A DNA stretch of 64,000 nucleotides, from contig PDLQ01000012.1 in NCBI GenBank assembly GCA_002591745.1, positions 1-64,000 of the forward strand, read 5' to 3'. The DNA is from Lewinellaceae bacterium SD302. GTDB lineage: Bacteria > Bacteroidota > Bacteroidia > Chitinophagales > Saprospiraceae. Of the stretch, positions 42,004 through 43,019 are shown in pieces. The number at the start of each line of letters is the position of its first letter. The stretch's first letter is position 1. The notes beneath the pieces are model-generated. The model was given only the letters and a program-made list of their open reading frames with translations, did not search any database and had not been told where the DNA came from. A program made the position numbers and the translations under genes.

Positions 42004-42028
42004 ATCTTCGGGATTCGCCCGAGCGGAT

Positions 42029-42036
42029 TATATTTG
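42029..42036 (+). promoter_or_regulatory. -7 promoter element of the tRNA-Leu gene
   Basis: TATATTTG, exact TAnnTTTG, 57 bases upstream of the tRNA 5' end. Confidence 0.6.
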
Positions 42037-42126
42037 CAGCAACGTAGTACCCAATCGCTTGATTGGTTTTGATCCGCCCTGTGCGGTGAAGGGCCCGGAT
42101 GGCGGAATTGGTAGACGCGCTGGACT

Positions 42127-42848
42127 CAGTTTTGCGGTTCGTTTGCTCCACGTTCTTTAGTATATTTAGCTATGCGCTATTCATACACAAAAGAAGAATT
42201 ACGAGCCGCTGTTGAAACCTCATACAGTATTGCCGAAGTTTGTAGAAAGCTACAGATTAAAGCAGCTGGCGGTAATTATACCACGCTTAAGCAGAAATTT
42301 GTCACCTGGAATATTGACACCTCACACTTTCGTGGGCAAGGATGGAATGTTGGCTTAAAATTCAAGCCTAATCCACGAAAACCTCTCCACGAAATCCTAG
42401 TGAAGAACTCAACATTTCAGGCATACAAGTTGAAGCGACGCCTTCTTAATGAAAACGTTCTTGTACGTGTTTGCAATTCTTGTAACCGAACCGAATGGCT
42501 AGACCAGCCGATTCCGATTGAACTACATCATAAAAATGGCGACAAGCATGATAACCGTTTAGATAACCTTGAGTTGCTTTGCCCAAACTGCCACGCACTC
42601 ACGGATAATTATCGAGGTCGCAACATTAGGGTTGCCCATTGAGAAATCTTTGGAGTAGAACTCGTCAAATTCGGTGAACGCTTCTGTGGTGACGCAGGTG
42701 CCAATACCGAGCCAAGTCCCGAGTCAATCGGGAAAGGTGTAGAGACTTGACGGCGAGCACCTAACTTCCTTCAGGAATAAGGTGAAGGTAAAGTCCAGAC
42801 CACAAACGCCATAGAGCATAGGCGGCGGCGAAAGCCGTAGCTGGTAAG
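42127..42848 (+). ncRNA. group I intron in tRNA-Leu(UAA)
   Basis: 722 nt. P1: exon UGGACU (42121-42126) pairs with guide GGUUCG (42136-42141), with the required U-G pair at the 5' splice site. P10: UUUUG (42130-42134) pairs with 3'-exon UAAAA. Conserved core: GCCAATACCGAGCCAAG (about 42700), the R segment GTGTAGAGACTTGACGG (about 42737-42753), the S segment AAGGTAAAGTCCAG (about 42786-42799). The intron ends in the obligatory G (42848). The core is close in wording to the cyanobacterial tRNA-Leu(UAA) intron (subgroup IC3), but the insertion point is after U33 instead of U34. The HNH gene fills the 5' peripheral loop. Confidence 0.93.
42172..42642 (+). CDS. intron-encoded HNH homing endonuclease
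   Basis: 156 residues. The N-terminus (about 1-60) has a helix-turn-helix-like segment, YSIAEVCRKLQIKAAGGNY, then TSHFRGQGWN, likely for DNA recognition. The C-terminal HNH domain (about 98-150) has zinc-knuckle cysteines C101/C104 and C137/C140 and catalytic ELHHKNGD (117-124), DNRLDNLELLCPNCHALT (H119/H120, N132, H141). It lies wholly inside the tRNA-Leu intron, between P1 and the core. Role by analogy: it cuts intronless tRNA-Leu alleles to copy the intron. The short, AT-richer leader before ATG 42172 (TATATTTAGCT) may allow expression from the precursor RNA. Confidence 0.92.
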   Translation: MRYSYTKEELRAAVETSYSIAEVCRKLQIKAAGGNYTTLKQKFVTWNIDTSHFRGQGWNVGLKFKPNPRKPLHEILVKNSTFQAYKLKRRLLNENVLVRVCNSCNRTEWLDQPIPIELHHKNGDKHDNRLDNLELLCPNCHALTDNYRGRNIRVAH

Positions 42849-43019
42849 TAAAATCCAGTTCCCTTTGCGGGAGTACGGGTTCGATTCCCGTTCCGGGTAC
42901 TAACGTTAATTGCAGGGAGGTTTGCCAGAGCAAGCCTCCCTCTTTTTTTGCCCGCCAGCGATATTTCGCTAAACAAGACATTTAATTACCTTTACGCCTT
43001 TCAAACCTGAAAGAAGATC

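Follow-up and report, generated by a model that had tools for sequence, protein, structure and literature searches.

A tRNA-Leu(UAA) gene that lies in two pieces raises the question of what separates them, how its transcript could be made whole, and by what route the insert came to sit after U33 rather than after U34, which we take to be the classical (cyanobacterial) site in this tRNA. We examined this question in a window of 64,000 nucleotides from Lewinellaceae bacterium SD302, all features lying on the forward strand. The 5′ exon (42093–42126) ends in U33 and the 3′ exon (42849–42899) begins with U34, with 722 bases between them. ARAGORN recognizes no tRNA at this locus without its intron option; with introns allowed it reports a tRNA-Leu(taa) containing a 722-nt intron and joins 42126 to 42849. 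Our scripted exon joining gives the same junction, and both place the insertion in the anticodon loop, after U33. The intron (42127–42848) is bordered by U at 42126 and ends in G at 42848; the script required a terminal G, so that this feature was imposed on the join, though the window intron fits it. The Rfam group I covariance model RF00028 matches 42600–42808 with 53.3 bits, just above the cut-off of 50 (E = 2.1e-12 within its own genome). The flanks of the tRNA gene (42004–43019) contain infC on one side and fabH on the other.

An intact open reading frame of 156 amino acids occupies 42172–42642 within the intron. Its domain match (PF13392, HNH_3; 25.7 bits) is just above the cut-off of 24.8, and the HNH residues and zinc cysteines (C101, C104, C137, C140, H120, N132, and H141) are invariant in 43 sequences. 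Together with the position of the frame, these features identify an HNH endonuclease gene. HNH_3 is the only Pfam match; PF11645, the PD-(D/E)XK family of I-Ssp6803I, is absent. The AlphaFold model (mean pLDDT 87, pTM 0.54) shows N-terminal helices and a C-terminal part with the HNH motif. A fold search against the PDB returned nothing at E 0.001, the best entry being EcoKMcrA (E = 0.018), and a sequence search of the PDB found no solved relative. The nearest named protein is from Neolewinella agarilytica (78%), and a sister intron (L150) comes from Bacteroidia, in keeping with the Bacteroidota host proposed in the initial annotation. That annotation had also read, from the letters of the window, two tRNA halves joined at 42126 and 42849, a group I intron inserted after U33 and not U34, a terminal G, and a complete internal HNH gene, all of which the searches above bear out.

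We then asked how well a group I core accounts for the sequence downstream of the gene. A core model of 53 pairs was written by hand and counted on an alignment of 41 related tRNA introns (7 Leu-U33, 18 Leu-U34, and 16 fMet-U33, named by tRNA and insertion site), all from the host family except L013, which is from the same order. Pairing reaches 95.7% of pair cells compared with a mean of 76.8% in shuffles, in an alignment that was not fitted to structure; the structure itself was drawn on the window sequence, a procedure that somewhat favors it. When partner columns are slid by 1–3, core pairing falls to 31.5–48.6%. Changes on both sides are seen in 37 of the 53 pairs.

The covariation count yields the usual P3/P7 pseudoknot, plus P4–P6 and P8, in the window intron. 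P3 joins 42661–42666 to 42752–42757 (helix 2 of the count), with 100% of cells paired and five of six pairs changed on both sides, and P7 joins 42744–42748 to 42791–42795 (helix 7), again 100% paired, with one of five pairs changed on both sides. The P4–P5 domain (42670–42711; helices 3 and 4) consists of P4, 42670–42675 with 42706–42711, and P5, 42680–42681 with 42700–42701. It is followed by the P6 region (42712–42737; helices 5 and 6), where 42712–42713 pairs with 42736–42737 and, distally, 42718–42722 with 42728–42732; the P6 loop is the site of the HNH gene in other lineages. P8 (42758–42784; helices 8 and 9) is made of 42758–42761 with 42781–42784 and a distal 42766–42769 with 42774–42777, and P9.0 and P9 (helices 10–12) fill 42799–42845. 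On the 5′ side of the core lies the P2 hairpin (42636–42653; helix 1), formed by 42636–42642 with 42647–42653.

The internal guide, GGGUU at 42629–42633, is best placed at the downstream side of the ORF, which puts the HNH gene within the loop of P1. P1 comprises G42630·U42126, G42631–C42125, U42632–A42124, and U42633·G42123, with the U·G pair at the splice site. From the letters, G42629 could pair either with C42127, extending P1, or with U42849, as P10. The guide pairs in all seven distinct Leu-U33 introns; the end of the 5′ exon is invariant across them, and the guide is therefore expected to be invariant too. It is kept in sister introns that have lost most of the HNH gene (L015, L022, L023, and its duplicate L024). 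In the window, the final HNH codons and the stop overlap the guide and P2, the stop codon falling within P2. The weak spots of the fold are a P1 of four base pairs with two wobbles, two U–U mismatches in the window copy of P2, and a weak P10.

The host family provides a broad setting for this intron. Of 398 family genomes, 75 have RF00028 matches, above the cut-off in 65, and we examined 104 intron loci, 102 from the family and two (L003 and L013) from elsewhere in the order. Through exon joining, 95 of them were placed: 38 Leu(UAA)-U34 (37 in the family; L056 and L078 counted here), 32 fMet-U33, 15 after position 36 of CAU tRNAs (Met or Ile; CAU-36), 8 Leu(UAA)-U33, and 2 Arg(UCU)-U34. No gene was assigned for the other nine (L003, L025–L028, L030, L075, L094, and L104); by eye, L003 has the look of a tmRNA T-arm, for which ARAGORN gave no confirmation. 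The genome of the window itself has a second intron, of 367 nt, after U33 of tRNA-fMet (L001:1375–1741, contig C60), which by eye contains the remnant of an I-Ssp6803I-like ORF.

The guides differ between site classes, each fitting the exon of its class: GGUU in 8/8 Leu-U33 loci, GGGCU in 32/32 fMet-U33 loci, and GAGU in 33 of 38 Leu-U34 loci, the remainder being L077 (GGGU) and four loci outside the displayed list (L080, L082, L083, and L096). Three bases of the CAU-36 guide, GGUGC, fit the exon. The ORF type also differs by class. The fMet-U33 ORF that was tested (L047) is a relative of I-Ssp6803I (2OST, E = 6e-63; PF11645), and six family Leu-U34 ORFs resemble the window HNH, the one that was scanned falling below the Pfam HNH cut-offs. 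HNH-like ORFs were seen by eye in 4 of the 15 CAU-36 introns (L008, L029, L034, L041, and 11 more), and the one scanned had no Pfam match above cut-off. Leu-U33 introns were seen only in the host genus and at one Armatimonadota locus. A search with the exact 14-mer GGTAAGTAAAATCC, which misses variants, matched 18 of 298 genomes in the order, with four true U33 introns, and 15 of 395 in the phylum, with two; all were from the host genus.

Where, then, does the U33 site come from? We lean toward an origin of the Leu-U33 intron from a Leu(UAA)-U34 intron by a slide of one base. The guide would have changed from GAGU to GGGUU, and U34 would have left the 5′ exon to become part of the 3′ exon. A change from GAGU to GGGU sets a G opposite U33, and the U34 intron L077 already has GGGU. 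All nine Leu-U33 rows of the genus (seven distinct; L150 is probably from the same genome as L018) score 120–156 bits with a Leu-U34 profile and 91–112 with an fMet-U33 profile.

Descent from the fMet-U33 introns of the same genomes, by reverse splicing into tRNA-Leu at the same loop position and later gain of a Leu-type HNH gene, is the main alternative, and we consider it rather unlikely. The insertion position is identical and the guide frame is shared (GGGCU and GGGUU). Both classes begin with CA (8/8 Leu-U33 and 31/32 fMet-U33), though so do most CAU-36 introns, and an fMet intron is present in five of the seven Leu-U33 genomes (G000, G002, G003, G011, and G017). A 92-row core tree (the family loci and L150, minus L101, L103, L082, and L020) also places Leu-U33 beside fMet-U33 at an unstarred node (63/90, bootstrap not settled); a grouping of Leu-U33 with Leu-U34 is not rejected on it (AU p = 0.117). 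In a quick tree of the HNH proteins, that of the window falls among HNHs most of which belong to Bacteroidales Leu-U34 introns (support 89), and the six Leu-U34 HNHs of the host's own family form a separate group (support 98), which counts against a local slide. The intron and the gene may for that reason have had different histories, as far as these sequences indicate.

Against descent from fMet-U33, the Leu-U34 profile is better by 21–45 bits for every one of the nine rows. P5 spans 14 nt in 32/32 fMet introns and 16–49 nt in the 36 measured of 38 Leu-U34 introns, and the Leu-U33 introns, as read from the alignment, have the longer form. In a 139-row core tree (L142 and L186 dropped beforehand; bootstrap not settled) the fMet introns join gammaproteobacterial Leu-U34 introns (89/89) and not Leu-U33, although this tree also keeps Leu-U33 and Leu-U34 apart. 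On the origin of Leu-U33 the two core trees are in disagreement. The window HNH is, moreover, unlike the PD-(D/E)XK type of the fMet introns. As to the more distant past, the initial annotation had suggested horizontal arrival or a sister branch of the cyanobacterial intron. Mobility is supported, but this reading is too narrow: Leu-U34 introns make up 37 of the 102 family loci, and a cyanobacterial source is therefore not required. An apparent second Leu-U33 intron, with U on both sides and its HNH gene in the P6 loop, is present in Armatimonadetes (L187:3001–3447). In the tree its core sits on a long branch far from that of the window, and the locus has the look of an intermediate stage in a shift of site.

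The initial annotation is supported in placing a group I intron, with an HNH gene of homing type, after U33 of tRNA-Leu(UAA), but its P1 and P10 are not upheld, the guide that pairs in 7/7 Leu-U33 introns being the one after the ORF. It gave no coordinates for them; we take its guide to be GGUUCG (42136–42141), with UUUUG just before it for P10, which would leave the ORF outside P1. This upstream guide is very improbable: its six-base exon pairing exists in the window intron alone (1/7). The opening 45 bases of the six other distinct Leu-U33 introns give runs of 1–3 at best despite the invariant exon end, and when that stretch of the window intron is shuffled, 201 of 2000 permutations do equally well.

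Comparison within the host genus bears on whether the intron moves. Seven of 21 genomes carry a Leu-U33 intron and 13 have an uninterrupted tRNA-Leu(UAA) gene; the one other genome, 55% complete, gave no full-length match. In six of the seven intron-bearing genomes the tRNA has a flanking gene in common with one or more of the empty genomes (L113 being outside the comparison). The window's own locus, from infC to fabH, has flanks common to none of the empty genomes and no gene within about 1.0–1.5 kb in common with the other genus genomes compared. HNH matches at E 0.001 are confined, in the genus, to intron-bearing genomes: G000, G002, and G017 have an intact gene, G018 has it split over two frames, and G001 retains a remnant, and there is no such match in G003, G011, G010, or the 13 empty genomes. 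The empty alleles, mostly at shared loci, support the mobility that the initial annotation had proposed. The distribution follows the pattern of gain and decay expected of homing, and transfer would be read from that distribution. In G011, two near-identical intron-bearing tRNA-Leu loci (L023 and L024) lie on different contigs, through duplication or through assembly or contamination (4%). That the intron is a dead relic, no longer spliced, with the tRNA supplied from elsewhere, is hardly credible: four of the seven intron-bearing genomes have an HNH gene that is disrupted or mostly lost, yet core and exons are intact, the window ORF is intact, and, one weak match (C60:78041) aside, no second tRNA-Leu(UAA) gene was recognized among the matches in its genome, rated 100% complete.

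We searched for relatives of the HNH protein with an alignment against 84,980 species, each represented by a single genome, and examined the best 80 of 487. Among these, 71 are linked to tRNA-Leu, either inside an intron or at most 400 nt from an intact gene, a fraction valid for the lineage of the window HNH and not for HNH proteins at large, since the query was built from tRNA-Leu introns and the sample was confined to its nearest matches. By script, 28 lie in sense orientation in a tRNA-Leu(UAA) intron (26 U34 and 2 U33) and 18 in antisense; L155 and L167 are also sense, by eye. The remaining 23 have an intact tRNA-Leu within 400 nt, and in 21 of these the ORF ends at most 39 nt upstream of the tRNA (18 UAA, 2 CAG, and 1 CAA), with one 3-nt overlap. 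No link to tRNA-Leu was seen for L138, L139, L141, L146, L147, L176, L181, L196, and L211, the last of which is near tRNA-Cys and tRNA-Gly. The script places 15 of the 26 Leu-U34 sense ORFs in the P1 loop and four in P6, and the other seven are in the P1 loop by their position near the 5′ end. All 18 antisense ORFs, and that of L187, are in the P6 loop. RF00028 at its gathering threshold gave one intron (L155) in 60 of the 80 HNH loci; introns with long inserts escape it, and we therefore relied on exon joining for the introns of these loci.

Six Hymenobacter loci (L171, L184, L189, L192, L206, and L212) have a free-standing HNH gene between tRNA-Gly and an intact tRNA-Leu(UAA), 10–30 nt before the latter. 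In Mycobacteriaceae (L199, L204, and L209) the HNH ORF ends 26–39 nt upstream of a 77–78-nt tRNA that has the loop CTTAAAA but whose variable arm is short, which is unusual for tRNA-Leu. Viral contigs show a similar association: for the best 80 of 574 relatives, some of them near-copies and therefore not independent events, 51 are linked to tRNA-Leu by the same measure. Of these, 41 have an intact gene no more than 400 nt away (40 of them UAA) and exon joining puts 10 inside tRNA-Leu introns (4 sense and 6 antisense), while 10 others have only other tRNAs near and 19 have none. The phage copies suggest a route of transfer.

Overall, the locus very probably holds a mobile tRNA-type group I intron, inserted between U33 and U34 of the sole recognized tRNA-Leu(UAA) gene of its genome and carrying an HNH gene in its P1 loop. 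In the precursor, the 5′ exon would pair through its final four bases with GGUU at 42630–42633, leaving the whole HNH gene looped out of P1. Guanosine attack followed by ligation at the terminal G would then restore the tRNA. The target of the HNH protein would be the uninterrupted tRNA-Leu(UAA) gene in related bacteria, and repair of the cut would copy in the intron together with its gene. We infer splicing, cleavage, and the origin of the site alike. The HNH lineage itself would be tied to its target gene and not to one intron position. It stands at an even chance that this lineage, bound to tRNA-Leu(UAA) and free beside the intact gene in chromosomes and phages, repeatedly entered the intron (P1 sense, P6 sense, and P6 antisense), one carrier having slid by one base through a change of guide.

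How mobile introns form and find their sites has so far been argued from few cases. The states around tRNA-Leu include empty alleles; introns without a nuclease gene, with an intact one, or with a decayed one; a free-standing nuclease beside an intact target; and a change of site by one base. The HNH relatives in or beside tRNA-Leu across bacteria and phages may thus be a record of mobile-intron assembly and, if so, a full series of its steps would be preserved around one gene. Searches of open-licence literature turned up no report of the Leu-U33 site, of a P1-loop HNH gene in tRNA-Leu, or of an HNH lineage bound to tRNA-Leu.

The nearest known system is the classical tRNA-Leu(UAA) intron, which (PMC3984707) shares with the window intron the tRNA, the anticodon loop, the group I core, and the terminal G. 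The host family also has introns after U34, whereas the window intron is inserted after U33, has the guide GGGUU (GAGU in the U34 introns of the family), and holds an HNH gene in its P1 loop; the U34 sequences compared are those of the host family and the HNH-bearing loci. Group I introns of tRNA genes with homing genes are a known kind (PMC1995217). The Synechocystis tRNA-fMet intron with I-Ssp6803I (PMC1995217; 2OST) likewise combines a tRNA intron and a homing nuclease, and its relatives are found in the fMet-U33 introns of the host family (L047 tested). Its nuclease is of the PD-(D/E)XK type, unlike the HNH protein of the window. According to PMC11915505, group I introns occupy four subsites in the T-loop of tmRNA, and one subsite is confined to Saprospiraceae. 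These share with the present case neighboring sites in one loop, lineage-restricted variants, and the wobble-U and terminal-G rules, but they lie in tmRNA, and the few nuclease genes reported for them are LAGLIDADG. In collaborative homing, as outlined in PMC3984707, a free-standing nuclease and an intron converge on one target, and the nuclease gene later enters the intron. Here, with the target of the nuclease read from position only, the corresponding arrangements surround one tRNA gene and occupy two loops in both orientations.
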